Below, in pieces: positions 7,978 through 19,873 of a DNA stretch of 64,000 bases. Both the position numbers and the translations under genes were made by a program. The DNA comes from Saprospiraceae bacterium (GTDB taxonomy: Bacteria; Bacteroidota; Bacteroidia; Chitinophagales; Saprospiraceae), in the NCBI GenBank assembly GCA_013001595.1, contig JABDMH010000046.1, positions 1 through 64,000 on the forward strand, read 5' to 3'. The number at the start of each line of letters is the position of its first letter. Within the stretch, counting starts at the first letter, position 1. The notes below the pieces were generated by a model. That model was not told the DNA's origin. It did no database searches and saw only the letters and a program-made list of their open reading frames with translations.

Positions 7978-10317
7978 ATGGTCAAGATAAAAGAGTCTCA
8001 ATTGATACCGCACCTATCTTCATTCCTCTGTATTCTTGTGCTTCTGGTGGCGCAATCCATTTATGCTCAAATAGACACTGAGTTTTGGTTTGCTGCCCCC
8101 AGTGTCACAGAAGATCACGGGGACCGACCCATCGTCTTGCGTTTTACCTCCTTTGATGAGGCAGCTCACGTCACCATCAGCCAACCGGCCAATCCATCAT
8201 GGCGACCAATCGAATTTGACATCGGAGCCAATGCCAGTCGAAGTATTGATTTGACGTTCCGCATCAATATGCTGGAAAATTTTCCTGCATTCCGAGTATT
8301 ACGTCACGGGTTGCATATACAATCCGATCAGCCGATCACCGCTTACTATGAAGTCAATCATGAGTTCAATCCAGATATATTTTCCTTAAAAGGCAACAAC
8401 GCCTTGGGTACCGACTTCTTAATTCCAGCTCAGAATTATTGGGGAAACTTTGAATATTACGACCCGCAACCCTTTTCTTCCTTTGACCTGGTAGCTACTC
8501 AAGATGGCACCGAAGTGACCATCATCACAACAGTTGATGTTCCAGGGCATTCCGCTGGAAATACTTGGACGGTAAGACTAGACCGTGGGGAGTCCTACTC
8601 AGTGACCGCCGCAGGTTTTGGTGCCGCTGATCAATTAACCGGATCTAGGGTGACTGCCAATCACCCGATCGCGATCACGCTCAAAGATGACAGCAACCAT
8701 TACGATCCGTGTCACGATCTCGGTGGCGACCAACTGGTACCGATCCGTGTATTGGGAACAGAATATATCGTCGTGAAAGGATTTTTACAAGGTGGAGATC
8801 GTGTATTCGTGATGGCTACGAAAGATGCTACCCAGCTTCAAATTGGTGATCAAGAGAATGCAGCGACCCTGAACACTGGCGAAATGCATGGTTTTCTGCT
8901 CAACGATGCTTCGACCTATATTCGCGCTAGTGCCCCTGTTTATGTGGTGCACGCCACCGGATTTGGCTGCGAGATTGGCCTCGCCATTCTTCCCAAAATT
9001 ACATGTACTGGTTCTCAGACGGTTAGTTTTACCAGGTCTACAGATGAAAACTTTGGCATAATCCTCATTACCGAAGTAGATTTTCAGAATGACTTCACCT
9101 TCAATAACCTGCAAGCTGCGGCAGAGATCGATCAATTTAGTCCAGTGCCAGGTACAAACGGCAGATATGTGGCCACACAAGTGAACTTGACAGACCGAGA
9201 TCAGACCAATTATAGCATTTCCAATCGCAGTGGCAGCTTTCACCTGGGCATCATCAATGGTGGCGATTTTAGTGGTACTCGCTATGCCTATTTCTCAGAT
9301 TTTAGGTCACTCAACCTTTTGGCAGATGCTTCCAGAATTTGCCTGGGTGGTGAAGTGCGTCTGGCTGTGAGTGGTAGTGACAACTATGAATGGTTTGGTC
9401 ATCGAGATGTACTAGGTAGCCTTGAAGATACTGTGTCCACAGCACCTGATGAGACTACGACTTATGGCGTAATTGGCTTTGACAATAACAATGGTTGCAG
9501 AGACACCGCATATTTGGATGTGGAAGTATACAAGTGGCCACAGCCCGACGTTGAAATCTCTCCAGCCTGCATAGGAACCCGTACATCCATACAATACCAC
9601 AGTGATGAAAGTCTGGAATCACTACAATGGATCTTTGGGCAGGACACATTCCTAACCGATGCTGCAGACTCCCTGATGCTGTCATGGCAAGAGCCAGGAA
9701 GAAAGGAGGTCATTCTCCAGGCCACTAATCCAGCTGGTTGCCTGGTGGACACCGTTTTAAGCATCGAAGTTGGAGGAGTACAACTACAACAGGATTCCGT
9801 GATCAGTATTAAAGCTGGAGAAGTGGGCAGTCTGGATGCAGTGGTACTATCCGGCAATCTTGATCAGGCGCAATTTCGCTGGGAACCAACCGAAGGCCTT
9901 TCATGTAGTGATTGTTTTGATCCGGAGTTCTCTCCTAATGAAGAAACAGTTTATACCTTGTACATAGATGATGTACTAGGATGTACTTCTGCGTACCGCA
10001 CCCACGTATTTGTTGACGCCGCCATCTTTGTGCCTAATGCCTTTAGTCCCGATGGAGACAACCTCAACGACTACTTCGAAATCTTCGCACCTGATGTAGA
10101 CATAGATCAAGTGCAGATTTTTAATCGCTGGGGGCAGATGTACTATCGCTGGAATCGTGGCACAAGCTCAGCTGCCCAACATCAATTCTGGAATGGTGAT
10201 GTTGATGGATCCTCCCACCAGGCTGCAACTGGTGTCTATGTGTATGTGATTTCCGGCTTTCACCAAAGGAGTGGCAATACCGTCCACCGCAGTGGCACCG
10301 TCACTCTGATGAGATAA
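7978..10317 (+). CDS. Secreted IgGFc-binding-domain protein with PKD-like domains and T9SS type-B (gliding motility-associated) C-terminal domain
   Basis: N-terminal IDTEFWFAAPSVTEDHGDRPIVLRF...; C-terminal VFVPNAFSPDGDNLNDYFEIFAPDVDIDQVQIFNRWGQMYYRW...GVYVYVISG. Confidence 0.88.
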   Translation: MVKIKESQLIPHLSSFLCILVLLVAQSIYAQIDTEFWFAAPSVTEDHGDRPIVLRFTSFDEAAHVTISQPANPSWRPIEFDIGANASRSIDLTFRINMLENFPAFRVLRHGLHIQSDQPITAYYEVNHEFNPDIFSLKGNNALGTDFLIPAQNYWGNFEYYDPQPFSSFDLVATQDGTEVTIITTVDVPGHSAGNTWTVRLDRGESYSVTAAGFGAADQLTGSRVTANHPIAITLKDDSNHYDPCHDLGGDQLVPIRVLGTEYIVVKGFLQGGDRVFVMATKDATQLQIGDQENAATLNTGEMHGFLLNDASTYIRASAPVYVVHATGFGCEIGLAILPKITCTGSQTVSFTRSTDENFGIILITEVDFQNDFTFNNLQAAAEIDQFSPVPGTNGRYVATQVNLTDRDQTNYSISNRSGSFHLGIINGGDFSGTRYAYFSDFRSLNLLADASRICLGGEVRLAVSGSDNYEWFGHRDVLGSLEDTVSTAPDETTTYGVIGFDNNNGCRDTAYLDVEVYKWPQPDVEISPACIGTRTSIQYHSDESLESLQWIFGQDTFLTDAADSLMLSWQEPGRKEVILQATNPAGCLVDTVLSIEVGGVQLQQDSVISIKAGEVGSLDAVVLSGNLDQAQFRWEPTEGLSCSDCFDPEFSPNEETVYTLYIDDVLGCTSAYRTHVFVDAAIFVPNAFSPDGDNLNDYFEIFAPDVDIDQVQIFNRWGQMYYRWNRGTSSAAQHQFWNGDVDGSSHQAATGVYVYVISGFHQRSGNTVHRSGTVTLMR

Positions 10318-10382: not shown

Positions 10383-11159
10383 CTACATGTAAAGATCCTC
10401 GTTCGATGTTTGGTGCAGTTCTGTCAGGAAGTGGGCTAGTTTTTGTGCACAATCGGCCAAATATTTTTTGCCCTTTTCAGCAGTAGCCAGTTTTGGATCG
10501 CCCACACCCGTATCTGCAGTCACTTTGGTCCACTGCCTTTGCGTAACAGCCCAACCTTCTCTAAATCCAGATAAAGGAATTTTTTTGGCATATCCATCAC
10601 CAGCTTCAGATAGAGGTCTGACCAAATCAGGTCTAATGTGCAGCATCACACTGGTCTCCATTTCACCTGCATGGTCCCCAGCATTGTCAAAGTATTTATT
10701 CCAATCAACCAGGCGGAACCAGTCTACCCAACAAATAAAGATTTCGGGATAAAGGAAAGATAACTCCCGTATCATGTTTTTAAAGTTATTGCCTCCATGG
10801 CCATTAAGGATCACCAATTTCTCAATGTTGTGACGTTTTAGCACATCGACCAAATCCTTAAGGATAGCCAGTTGTGTGGAGGGTAAAATATTCATACAGA
10901 ATTTAATATCCAGCTGACCTGTATTGACGCCAAAAGGTACACATGGAAGAACCAATGACTTTGTACCAAGCGATAGGGCCTGCATTGACGCCTGCTTAGC
11001 CACATATTCCACTTGATAATTATCAGTAGCATAAGGCAAGTGATAATTATGTGCTTCCGTAGCACCCCAAGGCAGTACTGCTAATTTATAATCGGTCTCA
11101 TTAACCGTTTTATAATTGGCATCGGCTAAAATGCTAACCTCGTTTAGATTGCAATTCAT
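10383..11159 (-). CDS. Creatininase family amidohydrolase
   Basis: AVLPWGATEAHNYHLPYATDNYQVEYVA; VILNGHGGNNFKNMIREL; DHAGEMETSVML. Confidence 0.88.
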   Translation of the reverse strand: MNCNLNEVSILADANYKTVNETDYKLAVLPWGATEAHNYHLPYATDNYQVEYVAKQASMQALSLGTKSLVLPCVPFGVNTGQLDIKFCMNILPSTQLAILKDLVDVLKRHNIEKLVILNGHGGNNFKNMIRELSFLYPEIFICWVDWFRLVDWNKYFDNAGDHAGEMETSVMLHIRPDLVRPLSEAGDGYAKKIPLSGFREGWAVTQRQWTKVTADTGVGDPKLATAEKGKKYLADCAQKLAHFLTELHQTSNEDLYM

Positions 11160-14112
11160 GTATTTGCTTTCTTATGAAAAAAAAGATCACCAGCACAGAC
11201 CCGATAATTAGCGACCACCATAGCCTGCTCTGCCAATGATTTGACATAAAGATGGGTTCTTCTGATCCAATAAGTATGAAAGTAGCCCAAAAGAATGGAT
11301 GCATCAAGTTGCCCGTCGACTTTTCTAAATAGCTCATCTTGGCCCGTTGCAATGCCTGATCCTTGGGCAGATCCTCCGCTAGGTTGGTATAGAAGTATTG
11401 CATAATGTCGGTTGCTGCCTTATCTTGAACATCCCATAACGAGGTGACAATACTTTTGGCGCCAGCATAAGAAAAACCCCGTGCCAAACTTGCTAGCCCT
11501 TCACCAGTTTGCACCGGCCCGACATTGGTCTCGCAAGCACTGAGGGTCACCAGTTGTATAGGCAGCTGTAGATTGTACAACTCATGTAGGAAGAGTCGGT
11601 CACCTCCATGAAATGCTAGGAAAGAGAGGTCTGAATTCTGATCGTCCACCTTGGCATGAGTAGCAAAGTGCAGAATACCAAATCGGTCCATATCTTGTAG
11701 TACCGCAGACTTCGTGGCAGACGCACCTGTAAGAAGCTTTCCCGGGAATATGGAAGATACCTGGGTGGCTTCGATTTCATTAAATAGCAGTGGGCCAAAT
11801 TGCCTAGCCTCGGTGCCGGCCTCAACCGCAAAGGATGGTGCCACCGCCATCATGTCAGACCTCAGTGCAATTTGGCCTTGCATAGTATGGTATAAAGTTG
11901 CCGAATAATTGTACGAAATGGCCTTGGTTTTTTCTACAAATAGATACGATCGCATGTCCATCAGGTCCTCCGGCCTTTCTGGCAACAGTGCTCCAAAAGG
12001 CAAGAGATTCAGCACACCATCAGGTACGATTTTCAATCTACGGCTCACTTGCTGTTCAACGGGTTTTAAAAGTAACTCATACAAGCCGTAGGCCTGGTCG
12101 ACGTATTGTTTCAAATGGTCGACATTTGCTTGATCCGTGATTGGCATTTGTGGGTTGAACGCACCCAAAGCCTCCAAAAAATGTTGAACTCGACTTTCCA
12201 GATCAACAGGCCTAGGTATGTATTGTACAGTACTGCCTTTTTTACTGATAAGAAAAAGGTAGATGTGCTCCCTCCCCACGAAGTACTCCAACATTGTTTC
12301 GTCCGACGCACATGAACTTGAAAGTTCTTCCAAATCGACAAAATTGAAGTTATACTTCGCCTGATGATATCTGGGGTATTTCTCCTCCAAAGATGATTTG
12401 AAATGTTCATAGGCCAGCTCCAAATCCGTTTTTTTCAACATCAATTCTTCTCGCAGTGATCCAGTACTTTGCATCACCAGCTGCCTTACCCGTGCAAGAC
12501 TATCCTGTAATGCAGCTTCCCTTGCCAGCACTTCCTGATCTATCGCACTATGTTGCAATGCAGAAGCTTCCAGTAGTGATTCCAGCAATGTCAACGATTT
12601 ACTTTTTTCATTCTTTAAGAACGCCTTGCCATAGTATGCAGGATCTCCTGTTAATTCTGCCAGGGTGATGTAGGCTTTGATCGCCCCTTCGTATATGGGT
12701 AGGTTTTGTCTTGAGAACAACATCTTAGACTTCTGAAAAGAAACTTCGGTCCGATTTTTAGTGGCAAAATGGTCCGCTAAATCATATAGTCCAATTGCTT
12801 CCATCAGGTCGCTTGTATCTGATGAAGACGCATAATGATCCATCCAAGCACTGGCCTTTAGCAAGCAAAGATGCTTCAGTGTTTGATAATTGGCAAGGTG
12901 ATCTCGGCCTGGGTTATCATGAATGTTCTCTTCATCAAGTCCTTCGATGGTGGCACACATTGCTTGATGGAAATGGTGCAGGGTCTCACTTACTCGACCT
13001 CTGGCCTGAGCATTGCGACCCAGGTCTAAGTAATAGAACCTCACCCTGGAATTATCAGGAAAATATCTAAGGTGCAGATCAACGGCCTTCTGATAGAAAG
13101 GAAAGGCTCTATCATGAGCTCCTCTTCTGGAGTAGACTTTTGCAAGCGTATTATAGCTTGCCACATGAAAGCGACCATTGGGTGCCGCCAATTTTTCAAA
13201 AATCTCGATGGTCTGTTTCGCATACTGTTCTGCAACATCGACCTGACCATCATCTAAGAATTGAAGTGCCGCATTATTCAATACAATGCCATATTCATTG
13301 CTAGTTCTACCGTACAATGCTTCCCGAATTCTCAGCGCTCGTTGAAAGCTGAAGCTGGCCGCTTCTTCATTGCCCAATGCTTTTTCGATGATTGCCAGAT
13401 TGTTATATCCGGTGGCCAACTCGGGATGCATTTCCCCAAAACGGGTACCAATTACTTGTACACCAGATTGGACCAGTTGCTTAGCTTTTTGCAAGTCTCC
13501 TATACGACGCAGCGCTTGTGCCCACTGCAGATATATCTCACCTTCAATCAGCACCAGCTCCCGACCTGAAGCCAACGGAATTGCTTTTTCAAAATAATGG
13601 ATGGCTGAATCGTGGGTTTCATTTTGATAATGATAGATACCTGTCCTTAAATAGATCATCGCAGCGATCTGGGCTGCCTGTTCGGCAAAGGGCTCGACCA
13701 AGTTGGCGGCATTGTGCAGACTTTGTCGCTCTTCGACATCGTCTGGAAAGGAAGATCCTTTTAGTAACCATAGATGAGCCAAGAGGGTCACATGCTCACG
13801 ATCAGAAAAGCCATGCTCACCATTGTCGTATCGATCTAGCAGGTCATCAATCTCTTTGGCAACATCAACAGAATCAATTAGACAATGCAATCGCCAGATA
13901 TTGCATTGCACATGACGAAATGGGTGCTCCTCAGTAAATAATTGGGCTGCCTTCTCAAATGATTGAGCTGCTGGCGTATATAATCCACTCGAGAAAGCAT
14001 GCATTCCTTCCGACCAGAGTTGGTGGGCTTCCAGCGTGTCTTGAGCTGAAAGATACGATCGAATACCAACCTGAATGACTATAGCCAATAACAAGTTTAA
14101 TTTGGGAGACAT
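11134..14112 (-). CDS. TPR and CHAT-domain protein, signal peptide and C-terminal TM segment
   Basis: TPR text through the N-terminal half; CHAT motifs ILHFATHAKVDD and VTLSACETNVGPVQTGEGLASLARGFSYAGAKSIVTSLWDVQD; C-terminal SLIIGSVLVIFFFIRKQ. Confidence 0.92.
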   Translation of the reverse strand: MSPKLNLLLAIVIQVGIRSYLSAQDTLEAHQLWSEGMHAFSSGLYTPAAQSFEKAAQLFTEEHPFRHVQCNIWRLHCLIDSVDVAKEIDDLLDRYDNGEHGFSDREHVTLLAHLWLLKGSSFPDDVEERQSLHNAANLVEPFAEQAAQIAAMIYLRTGIYHYQNETHDSAIHYFEKAIPLASGRELVLIEGEIYLQWAQALRRIGDLQKAKQLVQSGVQVIGTRFGEMHPELATGYNNLAIIEKALGNEEAASFSFQRALRIREALYGRTSNEYGIVLNNAALQFLDDGQVDVAEQYAKQTIEIFEKLAAPNGRFHVASYNTLAKVYSRRGAHDRAFPFYQKAVDLHLRYFPDNSRVRFYYLDLGRNAQARGRVSETLHHFHQAMCATIEGLDEENIHDNPGRDHLANYQTLKHLCLLKASAWMDHYASSSDTSDLMEAIGLYDLADHFATKNRTEVSFQKSKMLFSRQNLPIYEGAIKAYITLAELTGDPAYYGKAFLKNEKSKSLTLLESLLEASALQHSAIDQEVLAREAALQDSLARVRQLVMQSTGSLREELMLKKTDLELAYEHFKSSLEEKYPRYHQAKYNFNFVDLEELSSSCASDETMLEYFVGREHIYLFLISKKGSTVQYIPRPVDLESRVQHFLEALGAFNPQMPITDQANVDHLKQYVDQAYGLYELLLKPVEQQVSRRLKIVPDGVLNLLPFGALLPERPEDLMDMRSYLFVEKTKAISYNYSATLYHTMQGQIALRSDMMAVAPSFAVEAGTEARQFGPLLFNEIEATQVSSIFPGKLLTGASATKSAVLQDMDRFGILHFATHAKVDDQNSDLSFLAFHGGDRLFLHELYNLQLPIQLVTLSACETNVGPVQTGEGLASLARGFSYAGAKSIVTSLWDVQDKAATDIMQYFYTNLAEDLPKDQALQRAKMSYLEKSTGNLMHPFFWATFILIGSEEPIFMSNHWQSRLWWSLIIGSVLVIFFFIRKQIHELQSKRG

Positions 14113-14209: not shown

Positions 14210-15799
14210 ATGAATGTTGTGATCCGAGACTGGCCTAAAGAACGCATTTATTTTGTGCTCATCATACTGTTCAGCATTCCAGTATTCCTGTTAAATCTCG
14301 GTTCACCTGCATTCATCGAGGATGAAAGCATCAGGGGATTGGTAGCCCTAGAGATGGAGCTATCCGGAAATTTTATCGCTCCGACTCTAAATGGAGAATA
14401 TTATTTTAAAAAACCACCCCTTTGGAATTGGATTTTAATCGGCTTCTTTAACCTCACGGGTGACACCAATGAATTCTCAGCCAGACTGGCGACACTGCTC
14501 TTCCTATATCTATTTGGTCTCTCCATTTACATCACCTTTAAAAGACATCTGCCTGAAAAGCAGGCAATCCTCAATGCCTTACTTTTTCTGACTTGTGGTC
14601 GAATTTTGTTTTGGGATTCGCTACTGGCATTGATTGATCTTTGCTTTTCCTGGGTCATTTTCATGCTATTCATTTGGATCTATGAACAACATAGACGAAG
14701 TCGCTATCTCAGTCTCTATCTTGGTGCATATGCCATCGCCACCATTGCCTTTATGCTCAAGGCGCTTCCCGCACTAGTATTTTTGGGATTCACGCTCCTG
14801 GCTGTACAAATCAACGCGGGCACATGGAAGAAGCTATTTTCCTGGCAGCATTTCGCAGGCATTGGTTTGTTTGTGTCGGCCCTATCAGGCTACTTACTGC
14901 TGTATAATCAGTATTTTCCAATAGAAAATTTACTTTCTGTTTTTGTGGATGAGTCCACTCAGCGCACAGCCATCGAATATGGTTTTCTCAATTCATTGAT
15001 GCAGGTCTTCACTTTTCCTGTAGAAATGATTTATCACTTTCTTCCTTGGTCACTCATTTGCCTGCTGTTCTTTAGTAAACATGCTTTCAAACGGATCAAA
15101 CAGCAGGCATTTGTCAGTTTCTTGGCCTTGACTTTCGCAGCTAACATCTGGATATACTGGACATCGCCGGAGGTGTTTCCTCGCTATCTCTTTATGCTGA
15201 CTCCACTATATTTTGGAGTAGGTATCTATCTTTATCAAGATGGCTTAAGCAAATTCTTCAAGAGGTGCTTTGACATTTCTATGTTGCTGCTGGGGTGTAT
15301 CGTATGTTTTGGTTCAGCCATTGTACTTTTTGTAGAGCCTACGAAGTCCATGGCTGGGCTTTGGTGGAAATGGGGGGTACCATTTTCCATTATGCTTTGC
15401 TTTCTTTTCATCATGTTCAAGCAACCAAATTATCGCATCCTAGCCTTTGTGGCTTTCCTAGTTGCAGCCCGCCTGGGTTTCGACCTAATCGTGCTGCCTT
15501 CACGAGGTGTACACAGTGAGCTGGTACAGACTAGAGCGGATGCGGTACGTATAGGTGAAAAATGGCACGATGAACAGTTGTATCTTTACCGCTACGACAG
15601 CATGAAGTACGAAGCTAGTTTTTACCTTACTGCCACCAGAAAGCAGATCCTGCATCACACGCCTGAGTTGATTCCTGGTGCTTATCATTTGGTGAATCCC
15701 CTAAGGTACCCCATACTAATAAGTCAACACCAGAAAATCGACTCTCTCAAGATCAGTCGACCAGAAGACAAAGCCTACCTCATCCATATTCCCCAGTAA
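14210..15799 (+). CDS. ArnT/PMT-like (GT39-type) membrane glycosyltransferase
   Basis: Multi-TM; N-terminal NLGSPAFIEDESIRGLVALEMELSGNFIAPTLNGEYYFKKPPLWNWI. Confidence 0.82.
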   Translation: MNVVIRDWPKERIYFVLIILFSIPVFLLNLGSPAFIEDESIRGLVALEMELSGNFIAPTLNGEYYFKKPPLWNWILIGFFNLTGDTNEFSARLATLLFLYLFGLSIYITFKRHLPEKQAILNALLFLTCGRILFWDSLLALIDLCFSWVIFMLFIWIYEQHRRSRYLSLYLGAYAIATIAFMLKALPALVFLGFTLLAVQINAGTWKKLFSWQHFAGIGLFVSALSGYLLLYNQYFPIENLLSVFVDESTQRTAIEYGFLNSLMQVFTFPVEMIYHFLPWSLICLLFFSKHAFKRIKQQAFVSFLALTFAANIWIYWTSPEVFPRYLFMLTPLYFGVGIYLYQDGLSKFFKRCFDISMLLLGCIVCFGSAIVLFVEPTKSMAGLWWKWGVPFSIMLCFLFIMFKQPNYRILAFVAFLVAARLGFDLIVLPSRGVHSELVQTRADAVRIGEKWHDEQLYLYRYDSMKYEASFYLTATRKQILHHTPELIPGAYHLVNPLRYPILISQHQKIDSLKISRPEDKAYLIHIPQ

Positions 15800-16764
15800 T
15801 GATAGAAAAGGATGCCATTGAGATATCAATAGTAGTGTGTGTCTACAATGAAGAGGACAACATTAAACCTTTGATTGATCAGATTCATACTGCCCTAACT
15901 GGTGTCTCCTATGAGATCATATATGTGGATGATGGTTCCACTGACCGTACCTTAGAGGAACTTCAGGATTGTCTTGATGACCACCTGAAGGTGTTGGCCT
16001 TACGTAGAAATTATGGGCAAAGTCTAGCGCTCATGGCGGGCATCGACTCTGCCAAAGGACGCTACATCGTGACTATGGATGGCGATCTTCAAAACGATCC
16101 CTCAGATATTCCAGCCATGATGCAAACCAGCAAAACCCATAATTGGGATCTGGTAGCCGGTATCCGCAGTAATCGGCAAGACAATATGTTGTTCCGCAAG
16201 ATTCCGAGCAAGATTGCAAACTTCATCATCCGCCGTAGTTCTGGTGTGGAGATCGAGGACTATGGCTGCACACTTAAACTCTTTAAAAAAGAAATTGCCA
16301 AAGACCTGGGACTATATGGAGAACTGCACCGATTTATTCCAGTCTTAGCAAACCTGGAAGGTGCTACCATCACTCAAATGGAAGTTAAGCATCATGAAAG
16401 AACACACGGCGTATCCAAGTATGGGATGGGTAGAACCATCAAGGTGATGAGCGACCTCGTCCTTATGATCTTCTTTAAGAAATACCTGCAAAAGCCGATG
16501 CACCTCTTCGGTAATTGGGGTGTGGTGATTTTCATGCTTGGGGTAATGATAAACATATACATGATCTGGCTTAAAATTCAGGGTCAAGACATTTGGGGCA
16601 AACCCCTCATGTTGGTGGGCATACTTTTCATCATGACTGGTATCCAACTGATCACCTTTGGGATTTTTGTAGAACTCCAAATGCGTACTTACTATGAGAG
16701 CCAGAATAAACGACCTTACCGGGTGAGACAAATCTACCAGGTGAGTTCAGAAACCATTGGCTAA
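15799..16764 (+). CDS. Glycosyltransferase family 2 (ArnC/DPM1/GtrB-like)
   Basis: SIVVCVYNEEDNIKPL, YVDDGSTDRTLEEL, GRYIVTMDGDLQNDPSDIP; C-terminal TM helices; start overlaps upstream stop (TAATGA). Confidence 0.92.
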   Translation: MIEKDAIEISIVVCVYNEEDNIKPLIDQIHTALTGVSYEIIYVDDGSTDRTLEELQDCLDDHLKVLALRRNYGQSLALMAGIDSAKGRYIVTMDGDLQNDPSDIPAMMQTSKTHNWDLVAGIRSNRQDNMLFRKIPSKIANFIIRRSSGVEIEDYGCTLKLFKKEIAKDLGLYGELHRFIPVLANLEGATITQMEVKHHERTHGVSKYGMGRTIKVMSDLVLMIFFKKYLQKPMHLFGNWGVVIFMLGVMINIYMIWLKIQGQDIWGKPLMLVGILFIMTGIQLITFGIFVELQMRTYYESQNKRPYRVRQIYQVSSETIG

Positions 16765-16834: not shown

Positions 16835-19800
16835 ATGAATTTAACGACGAACTTGCTGACGCTTTTTCTTTGTCTTGGCTACCTGACAAGTTCAGCTCAA
16901 CTGATAGAAAATTTTAATCAGTATAGTTGGCAGCAGAAGGACAGCATCATCGAGACACTATATCATGGTGGGGCCAAGAATGTGGTGAATGTCATTATCG
17001 ATCAAGCCTACGAGGCTGAAAGGACAAAGGTTTCCCAGGATCTCGAGGCCTTGGCTGCATTAACCGTCTGGAAAGGCATCAAGGAACTATCAGAAAGTAA
17101 CCTGGTAGAAGCACAAAACACATTGCAAACAGCGGTAGAAATATATGAGCAAAAACCAGCCATAGATCGACTGCGATACCAAGATGCGCTGATCAACCTT
17201 TCGGATATCTATCGAGAACGAGGTGATGCCCTACTTGCTTTTCGATCTTTTGCAAAAGCATTAGACTTGCTGGATGTAGATACCATGGTCCAAGCCAGCA
17301 TGATGCACTCTAGCTATCAACATGCCAGTGACCTGGCGTTGCAGGCCGGTGAATATAACGAAGCTGAGTCCTATGGTAAGAAAGCGCTAAGCCTCAGTCA
17401 AACTGAATTCACCAATCGATCCAATGAGTACTTTCAGTCCTTGACGCGACTCGGTCTGATCTACCGGGCCCAAGGACAATTGAGGCGTGCCTCAAACCTC
17501 ATTTTACAGGCCTACGACATGGCAAAAACACACCTGCCAGATGATGATCCCAACAAAGTATATTATGCCAACTTGGCGATTGAAGACCTAGAGCGAAATG
17601 GAAGATCTACTGCTGCAGAAGAAGTATATAAGGAGCAGCTGGCATTCTATGATAAGTACAGCCAATATCAAGATGATATTTCCTATCCCGTTCTTCTGAA
17701 TCAACTTGGAGATTTCTATTCCACCAGGGGAGATCTAGATCTGGCTTATGACTACTACAACCGAGCAAATATCCTCTTTGAACTCCGTACAGATAATACC
17801 GATCCCAGGTATATTCAGTCACAGGCCAATGTGGCTCGGATACTCCAACAGCAGGGCAAATATGTGGAAGCAGAATTATACTATTTGGCAGCATTGCGCT
17901 ATGCTGGCGATGCTTTTGACGAAAACAGTTGGACCGAAGGATACATCAGAGACAATCTAGCGACCATGTATGCCGCGATGGACAAGCCCAAAGAAGCCCT
18001 CGAGCAACGGAGACTTGCCAATAAAATCATTGAAGTGAACCTTGGACCCAATCATCCAGAATACGCAGTATCTACCCTGAATATTGGGGAAGCTTATCTT
18101 GCACTAGGCCAGGATTCACTGGCGAGCGATTTTCTGACAACGGCCTATGTGAAGTTGGATCAGCTATACGGTCCCCGACACGCCAGGGTATTTACAGCCG
18201 CCCATAGTTTGGCAGACTACTATGCTGAAAGAGATGTAAAACTCGCCCTAGATTACTATGGAAGGGCTGCTGATTTTGTCGACTACCATTTTCTCAATGT
18301 TCTTCCCTTGTTACCGACGGCAGAGCGACTGTCGAGCTTAGAACGCTACAAGAAATTTATTGACAAATACTTCTCTTTCGGCTATCAACACCATAGCGAA
18401 AATCCTACCGTTGGGTCAAAAATGTATAACACGGCACTGGCCTACCAACATGCTAGAGAAGCACTAGACATCCCAACCACTCTAGCACTAACTAAAGAAC
18501 CCACTGCTGATTTGAGAAAGTCCTACAATCAGTGGAAAGCGCTCCGGTCGCAAATCATTATTGCGACGGAAAAGACCGTGGCTGAACGGACTGAAATGAA
18601 CGTAGACTTGAATGAACTCTTTACTGATATTCAAGCAATCGAGAAAACAATGTTTCCGGCTTATCTCAACAATCATGTTGGCCGTGAATCAGATGGCTTC
18701 ATCAGCTCCCTCAAAGCTAGGTTGCAAAGTGGTGAGGTGTTGGTCAATTTCTTTCCCATGCATTGGTTCAATATGCAATCCCAACAATTCAATGATCAGG
18801 AGGCATACTTGACCTTCGTCCTGGGCCCAACTAGTACCAAGATCGATCTGATAGAGATTGGCTTAACTCAAAATGTACTTGATGTCGAGCAATCACGTGG
18901 TCAGTCAGCATATTCCCAGCAAATCTGGTCGCCTCTTGAAGATGTACTCTCCAGTCATCAGCGTCTTTTGATCGTTCCTGCAAAACGAATGAATTTGGTT
19001 GCTTTTGGAGCGCTCGCGACCAAAGATGGAAGTTTAGTATGGGATGAGTTTAAAATCGATCGCCTCAGTAGCCCTTTTGCCCTATTCAATAGATCCGCAA
19101 ACACAAGTATTCAAGACAAGGTGGCATTGGTGACCAACGTAGACCTGCGTGGAAATCCCACCTTAGCTGACGGTACATCACCCTCAAAAGTTCAAGTGCC
19201 GGCAAGAGTGATCGCACCAGAAAGAGTGCGCAAGAACATGCCCCTCAAAATGACTACAGTCAACGCTGACCAGGTGATAGCCATAGCTACTAAAACCTTA
19301 GGTAAGAAGAAGGAACTTACCATCTTACAAAATGATCAAGCCAGTAAAAGCAATGTCAATGCTCTGGCTACTGCAAACACGTCTATGATACATCTAATCA
19401 CATCAGGTTTACTGATGAGTGAAGACGATGTTTCCATAGATACCACCACAAACTTAGCTACGCTCACAAGCCCCTGGTTAAAATCCGCACTTACCCTGAC
19501 AGGAGCTAATCAAACCTGGGAAAGCGACAGTATGATTACCGACATAATAGACGATGGCATCCTTACCTCTTTGGAGTTAGCTACGCTAGACCTGGACAAG
19601 GTTGATCTAACCATTCTCGATGGTTTGAACCTGCAACAAGCTCAAAATGCCGATGGTGCAGCTTTGCTGAGGCTCGTACGAACACTCCAGATGGCTGGAA
19701 GTAAACATGTGCTAGTATCACTCTGGCCAGCTAGGGATCGCGACAGTTATTTCCAGCTATTTTATAAAAATCTATCCAAAGGAAAAACCGTCAAAGATGC

Positions 19801-19873
19801 GTTCTACCTGACGCAAAAAAAGATGCGCAAGAAATTTGATGTGGCTTCTTGGGCGGGATATGTCTTATTCTAG
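16835..19873 (+). CDS. TPR and degenerate CHAT-domain protein (predicted inactive)
   Basis: Signal peptide MNLTTNLLTLFLCLGYLTSSAQ (start moved from 16757 to 16835); TPR text; CHAT fold text but catalytic His and Cys positions read MIHLITSGLL and LTILDGLNLQQA. Confidence 0.85.
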   Translation: MNLTTNLLTLFLCLGYLTSSAQLIENFNQYSWQQKDSIIETLYHGGAKNVVNVIIDQAYEAERTKVSQDLEALAALTVWKGIKELSESNLVEAQNTLQTAVEIYEQKPAIDRLRYQDALINLSDIYRERGDALLAFRSFAKALDLLDVDTMVQASMMHSSYQHASDLALQAGEYNEAESYGKKALSLSQTEFTNRSNEYFQSLTRLGLIYRAQGQLRRASNLILQAYDMAKTHLPDDDPNKVYYANLAIEDLERNGRSTAAEEVYKEQLAFYDKYSQYQDDISYPVLLNQLGDFYSTRGDLDLAYDYYNRANILFELRTDNTDPRYIQSQANVARILQQQGKYVEAELYYLAALRYAGDAFDENSWTEGYIRDNLATMYAAMDKPKEALEQRRLANKIIEVNLGPNHPEYAVSTLNIGEAYLALGQDSLASDFLTTAYVKLDQLYGPRHARVFTAAHSLADYYAERDVKLALDYYGRAADFVDYHFLNVLPLLPTAERLSSLERYKKFIDKYFSFGYQHHSENPTVGSKMYNTALAYQHAREALDIPTTLALTKEPTADLRKSYNQWKALRSQIIIATEKTVAERTEMNVDLNELFTDIQAIEKTMFPAYLNNHVGRESDGFISSLKARLQSGEVLVNFFPMHWFNMQSQQFNDQEAYLTFVLGPTSTKIDLIEIGLTQNVLDVEQSRGQSAYSQQIWSPLEDVLSSHQRLLIVPAKRMNLVAFGALATKDGSLVWDEFKIDRLSSPFALFNRSANTSIQDKVALVTNVDLRGNPTLADGTSPSKVQVPARVIAPERVRKNMPLKMTTVNADQVIAIATKTLGKKKELTILQNDQASKSNVNALATANTSMIHLITSGLLMSEDDVSIDTTTNLATLTSPWLKSALTLTGANQTWESDSMITDIIDDGILTSLELATLDLDKVDLTILDGLNLQQAQNADGAALLRLVRTLQMAGSKHVLVSLWPARDRDSYFQLFYKNLSKGKTVKDAFYLTQKKMRKKFDVASWAGYVLF

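Follow-up and report, generated by a model that had tools for sequence, protein, structure and literature searches.

The DNA analysed here (the window) is a stretch of 64,000 nucleotides from a Saprospiraceae bacterium, and one of its genes raises the question of what a protease-like protein does once its catalytic residues are gone. Starting at the ATG at 16835, the open frame comprises 1,012 codons and a stop; the original prediction of a 1,013-aa frame is correct if the stop is counted. The product is probably an exported TPR–CHAT protein, export being read from the apparent signal peptide at its N-terminus (Table 1). Residues 1–20 of this region have pLDDT values of about 32–35 in the AF2 model, and the orthologues and active paralogues have similar hydrophobic N-termini. 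Pfam places four TPR_12 stretches on the N-terminal side of the CHAT domain, and the TPR part matches kinesin-light-chain TPR structures in the PDB. For the CHAT domain PF12770 scores 87.1 bits in the protein scan (residues 695–1011; cut-off 24) and 90.7 bits in the whole-genome search, so that the likeness to CHAT is far above chance. CHAT and TPR are the only families that Pfam reports for the protein, Peptidase_C14 (p20) not being among them. The model for the TPR protein of the FxSxx-COOH system (NF040586) gives 72.3 bits, below its cut-off of 300, and the similarity is confined to the TPR.

Table 1. Features of the pseudo-CHAT gene and its neighbours, in window coordinates
Feature	Position	Strand	Basis or remark
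TPR–pseudo-CHAT protein, 1,012 aa	16835..19873	+	open frame; TPR_12 and CHAT matches; dyad absent
Apparent signal peptide (MNLTTNLLTLFLCLGYLTSSAQ), residues 1–22	16835..16900	+	read by eye from sequence
TPR superhelix, about residues 24–545	16904..18469	+	Pfam TPR_12, AF2, PDB matches
CHAT domain without catalytic dyad, residues 695–1012	18917..19870	+	PF12770; Foldseek
Lys823–825, near-invariant in the dead clade, clade-specific	19301..19309	+	column comparison
Ser857 codon, catalytic His position	19403..19405	+	alignment
Leu931 codon, catalytic Cys position	19625..19627	+	alignment
K996-x2-K999-K1000-x-D1002, basic C-terminal motif, clade-specific	19820..19840	+	column comparison
ArnT-like GT39 (PMT_2) glycosyltransferase, first of conserved gene set	14210..15799	+	Pfam; conserved order
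ArnC-like GT2 polyprenyl-phosphate glycosyltransferase	15799..16764	+	Pfam; 70 bases upstream of pseudo-CHAT gene
TPR–CHAT paralogue with both His and Cys intact, C-terminal membrane segment	11134..14112	-	Pfam; alignment

The catalytic positions were located by aligning 31 CHAT domains, namely those of the window protein, the intact CHAT protein encoded at 11134–14112 (- strand) and 29 others. The motif HFATHAK is replaced by HLITSGL, placing Ser857 at the position of the catalytic His, while LDGLN replaces LSACE and places Leu931 at that of the catalytic Cys. Both residues are thus gone, as the original prediction had it, and most of the residues flanking each of them are lost as well. Across the group of orthologues described below (the dead clade), alignment columns 419–420, 517–519, 522–525 and 537–544 are mostly lost. 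The sole Cys of the whole protein is Cys13, located within the apparent signal peptide. The mature protein is Cys-free, as is that of the G002 orthologue, so that a dyad at shifted positions is impossible.

The fold around the lost dyad had been predicted to be kept, and the PF12770 score and the structural comparisons agree with this. The full AF2 model has a mean pLDDT of 75.2, with values mostly of 80–95 in the TPR superhelix and mostly of 25–85 in the CHAT part, which reaches 56 when modelled alone. A Foldseek search of the PDB with the CHAT part is headed by three TPR-CHAT chains of Craspase (E = 5.8e-6 to 1.1e-4), with gingipains at ranks 13–22. The TM-scores are only ~0.25, and the match therefore backs the fold and not its details. 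With the full-length model TPR proteins dominate, and human separase appears at rank 16. Taken as predictions, the models support retention of a caspase/separase-like fold in the dead CHAT domain.

Loss of the dyad is not peculiar to this genome. Including the window gene there are nine orthologues, from three related Saprospiraceae genera. The Cys is retained in none of them, being replaced by L in the window's own genome (G000), I in G001, A in G002, V in G003, L in G004, I in G005, Y in G117, L in G067 and H in G167. The His is retained in one (G117), and is replaced by S in G000, P in G001 to G005, and F in both G067 and G167. A purely local loss is thereby ruled out, as is a frameshift or assembly error, since orthologues from independent assemblies agree. 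The G001 protein has a Cys that the profile, by opening a gap of three residues, assigned to the Cys column; it sits three residues before the catalytic position, where the multiple alignment has Ile, and with Pro at the His position it was rejected as catalytic. Both dyad residues are intact in 93 of the 102 distinct CHAT domains that could be read at both positions, and the nine exceptions are precisely these orthologues; the domains were collected for their similarity to the window protein and to CHAT rather than at random. Short or divergent CHAT matches within the genus have His and Cys wherever the region is present.

The six genomes of the genus each carry exactly one high-scoring copy (at least 580 bits per piece; the next CHAT scores 196 bits), that of G004 being split over two contig ends and that of G005 partial. 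Searching 248 genomes of the family with a genus profile added three orthologues. G117 (genus g112) scores 736 bits, and for G167 and G067 (genus g62) the TPR half gives 374 and 366 bits and the CHAT part 120–136; the best-scoring active paralogue reaches 288 bits. An enlarged profile found no tenth member in 398 family genomes; the nine members score at least 880 bits (526 for the C-terminal piece of G004 alone), which is high by construction as they sit in the profile, and the best other match has 345. Among 299 genomes sampled from the order no orthologue was found. Orthologous loci were found on four MAG contigs (two Saprospiraceae and two Bacteroidia) using the orthologue alignment A2 as query; the same search with the window protein as sole query gave no match.

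In a CHAT tree of the nine dead members and 30 active TPR–CHATs the orthologues form one group with support of 96/97, and of 89/94 after removal of the motif columns. The GT2 genes of eight genomes bearing an orthologue likewise form one group (100/99). Most simply, the Cys disappeared once, ahead of the divergence of the clade, although independent losses are conceivable. The two trees conflict on whether G117 or g62 branches first, so that either one or two losses of the His are implied; its replacement by P or S in some members and by F in others would be consistent with two. Given the long branches, the precise branching order is uncertain. G117, with His kept and Cys lost, is possibly a half-way member.

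An estimate of dN/dS had been proposed as a check on selection. In strict form this fails as dS is saturated in nearly all comparisons, and for this reason only pN and pS are compared. For the closest pair, G003 and G005, pN is 0.29 and pS 0.84 (saturated) in the CHAT part, and 0.22 and 0.75 in the TPR part. That pN lies far below pS in the CHAT part indicates purifying selection there. In all nine genomes the gene is free of internal stops, with ~1,000 open codons in the full-length members. Identity to the window protein for most members is 34–56% in the TPR part and 26–39% in the CHAT part; the active neighbour shows the reverse pattern between G000 and G002, with 51% in CHAT and 43% in TPR. 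Judged from these sequence comparisons, constraint in the dead clade is real, and bears less strongly on the CHAT part than on the TPR part. Given its lower conservation the CHAT part could be a passive appendage.

Which residues are constrained can be seen by comparing columns between nine dead and 24 active CHAT domains. Of the columns conserved among active paralogues, the dead clade keeps the structural positions W698, G908, L910–S912, E914, L920, L925, G955 and W1006, and has mostly lost the position directly following the His, the S-A-C motif and, beyond that motif, the loop E-G-x-x-G-L-Q-R. Lysines are near-invariant in the dead clade at 823–825, 978, 982, 996 and 999, where the active paralogues vary or have Glu. 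The net charge of the last 45 residues is +4 to +9 in all nine dead members, compared with mostly -4 to +2 in active ones; the clade-specific lysines and the charge were both found by post hoc comparison. On the evidence of the conserved loss in nine members, the open frames and the low pN of the CHAT part, the gene encodes what was originally proposed, a selected pseudoprotease, rather than being a gene in decay.

The pseudo-CHAT gene lies downstream of a glycosyltransferase pair. The best NCBIfam match of the GT2 product is ArnC, with 204.9 bits, below the cut-off of 529. The order GT39–GT2–pseudo-CHAT occurs in seven of the nine orthologue genomes and in three genera, G117 and G067 having the pair upstream of the gene and G167 lacking it there; within the genus the order GT39–GT2–pseudo-CHAT–DPPIV is common to the loci as far as the contigs reach. 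No terminator-like site was found between GT2 and the pseudo-CHAT gene. The promoter search gave a TAnnTTTG match 18 bases before the start, but this motif is no commoner than chance predicts, with 43 matches found and 43.5 expected. The GT2 is present in 73 of 248 family genomes (at E 1e-120), and in all 24 loci read outside the clade no pseudo-CHAT gene follows it. As the GT2 often occurs without the pseudo-CHAT gene, the glycosylation pair is independent of it.

The intact TPR–CHAT gene at 11134–14112 overlaps the start of a creatininase-family gene (10383–11159, - strand), and G002 has the same order (TPR–CHAT at L042:12555–15428, creatininase-family at 11781–12551). An IgGFc-binding/CHU_C (type IX secretion) gene at 7978–10317 (+ strand) is found near the GT39–GT2–pseudo-CHAT block also in G001, G002, G003 and G004. 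There are 9–13 CHAT matches per genome in the genus. In other Saprospiraceae genera TPR–CHAT genes occur in head-to-tail arrays (L046, G021:C46; L180, G142:C45). Elsewhere in the window's genome a CHAT fragment with an in-frame TAG (L145, G000:C12:13184–13939) is a possible remnant of an active-type gene, and L142 and L143 (G000:C61) have N-terminal CHAT-like domains that keep the His and Cys motifs and are unlike the exported TPR–CHAT type.

Comparison with known systems sets the protein apart. The active Saprospiraceae TPR–CHATs (PF12770; e.g. that at 11134–14112) resemble it in their apparent signal peptide, TPR array, C-terminal CHAT domain and length of ~1,000 aa, but keep the His, the Cys and the flanking motif, while the window protein lacks these and has the clade-specific lysines. 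Csx29, the TPR-CHAT of Craspase (type III-E CRISPR), shares the TPR plus CHAT architecture and provides the three best structural matches; it carries the dyad H585/C627, and its activation proceeds through gRAMP (PMC9729208). The window protein differs in the missing dyad and the apparent signal peptide. A Pfam scan of ten neighbouring proteins in the window detected none that is a Cas protein, and the NCBIfam Csx29 model does not match the window protein. Membership of a defence system was also considered and rejected, padloc yielding merely a weak TPR match. Pseudo-orthocaspases of cyanobacteria and Alphaproteobacteria have a long-conserved caspase fold in which both catalytic residues are replaced, mostly by Tyr/Ser, with the pocket apparently unchanged (PMC6426788). 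These belong to the p20 family, in contrast to the CHAT protein here, whose replacements vary and whose flanking residues are lost too. Inactive caspase domains are also kept in bacteria in the VMAP/vWA-MoxR conflict systems (PMC7159879), where they are effectors of NTP-dependent systems that none of the scanned window neighbours resembles. As cited in PMC6426788, c-FLIP and TbMC4 are dead caspase-family proteins with a non-catalytic role; they differ in being eukaryotic, from other families and with known partners. Dead caspase-fold proteins are thus already known. In the literature searched, no dead extracytoplasmic TPR–CHAT group was found to be described, and nothing was found there on CHAT-domain pseudoproteases or on CHAT in Saprospiraceae.

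With the cutting site lost and both the fold and the protein-binding repeats kept, binding rather than cutting is the most likely function. The best reading, which we regard as reasonably probable, is a non-cutting periplasmic protein, a TPR scaffold or adaptor in which the CHAT fold has been recycled. The Cys was, most simply, lost once in the ancestor of the clade, and the His is missing from all but one member; the catalytic surroundings are dismantled, with purifying selection keeping the fold core and TPR array. Following export to the periplasm the TPR superhelix would bind a partner protein or peptide. A second surface for binding or assembly may be offered by the dead CHAT domain, whose C-terminal face is basic. 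The roles of regulator, scaffold or decoy originally suggested stay suggestions, and an active-site decoy is the least likely of the three because the residues around the catalytic positions are lost.

A rather unlikely alternative, though the strongest of the others, is that the protein regulates one of the active TPR–CHAT proteases of its own cell, for instance by forming hetero-oligomers with them or holding their substrates. Each genome of the genus has several CHAT matches, and since the active paralogues have similar apparent signal peptides they may share a compartment with the dead protein. An intact CHAT gene lies ~2.7 kb upstream, its G002 orthologue is also near the dead gene, and dead caspase-fold proteins that act in this way, as c-FLIP does on caspase-8, are cited in PMC6426788. 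However, no intact CHAT gene was present where the surroundings of the dead gene were read in G001, G003, G004 and G117, no active group was seen to co-occur solely with the dead clade, and loss of the residues after the His and of the loop after the Cys, conserved in active paralogues, makes it less likely that the groove would hold the same substrates. As active CHAT genes are close only in the window and in G002, and the glycosylation pair is independent of the pseudo-CHAT gene, a TPR scaffold or adaptor is favoured.

The role of an accessory to the upstream ArnC/ArnT-like polyprenyl-phosphate glycosylation pair, for instance by bringing in or docking the acceptor, be it protein or glycan, in the periplasm, appears improbable. 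The gene order conserved in seven genomes, the short same-strand spacing after GT2 with no terminator-like site found, and the basic C-terminal stretch are all consistent with it, yet the GT2 loci read outside the clade lack the gene, that of G167 does not adjoin GT2, and the shared position may be plain descent. Marginally more doubtful is the specific history in which an ancestral Saprospiraceae TPR–CHAT protease lost first its Cys and then its His to become a non-catalytic periplasmic partner of this pair with a new basic docking face; if true, a caspase-fold protein would have been recruited to envelope glycosylation. That the protein is still an enzyme using other residues is very improbable: G117 keeps the His and other polar residues are still in the domain, but the mature protein is Cys-free here and in G002, and the variety at the nucleophile (L/I/V/A/Y/H) and His (S/P/F, with H in one) positions includes no conserved replacement. 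A decaying gene on its way to loss is the least credible, for the faster divergence of the CHAT part than the TPR part is outweighed by the lack of internal stops in nine genomes, a pN far below pS, clade-specific invariant residues and retention in all six genomes of the genus examined.

Dead proteases are well known in animals, and to our knowledge few in bacteria have been traced from an active ancestor to a conserved non-enzyme. The related genomes studied here, in which the gene position is mostly fixed, allow the dead clade to be set beside its active paralogues and a possible half-way member, so that the sequence of the losses and the selective forces behind them can be put to the test. 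The comparison also gives an entry point to the role of the many exported TPR–CHAT proteins of the Saprospiraceae.
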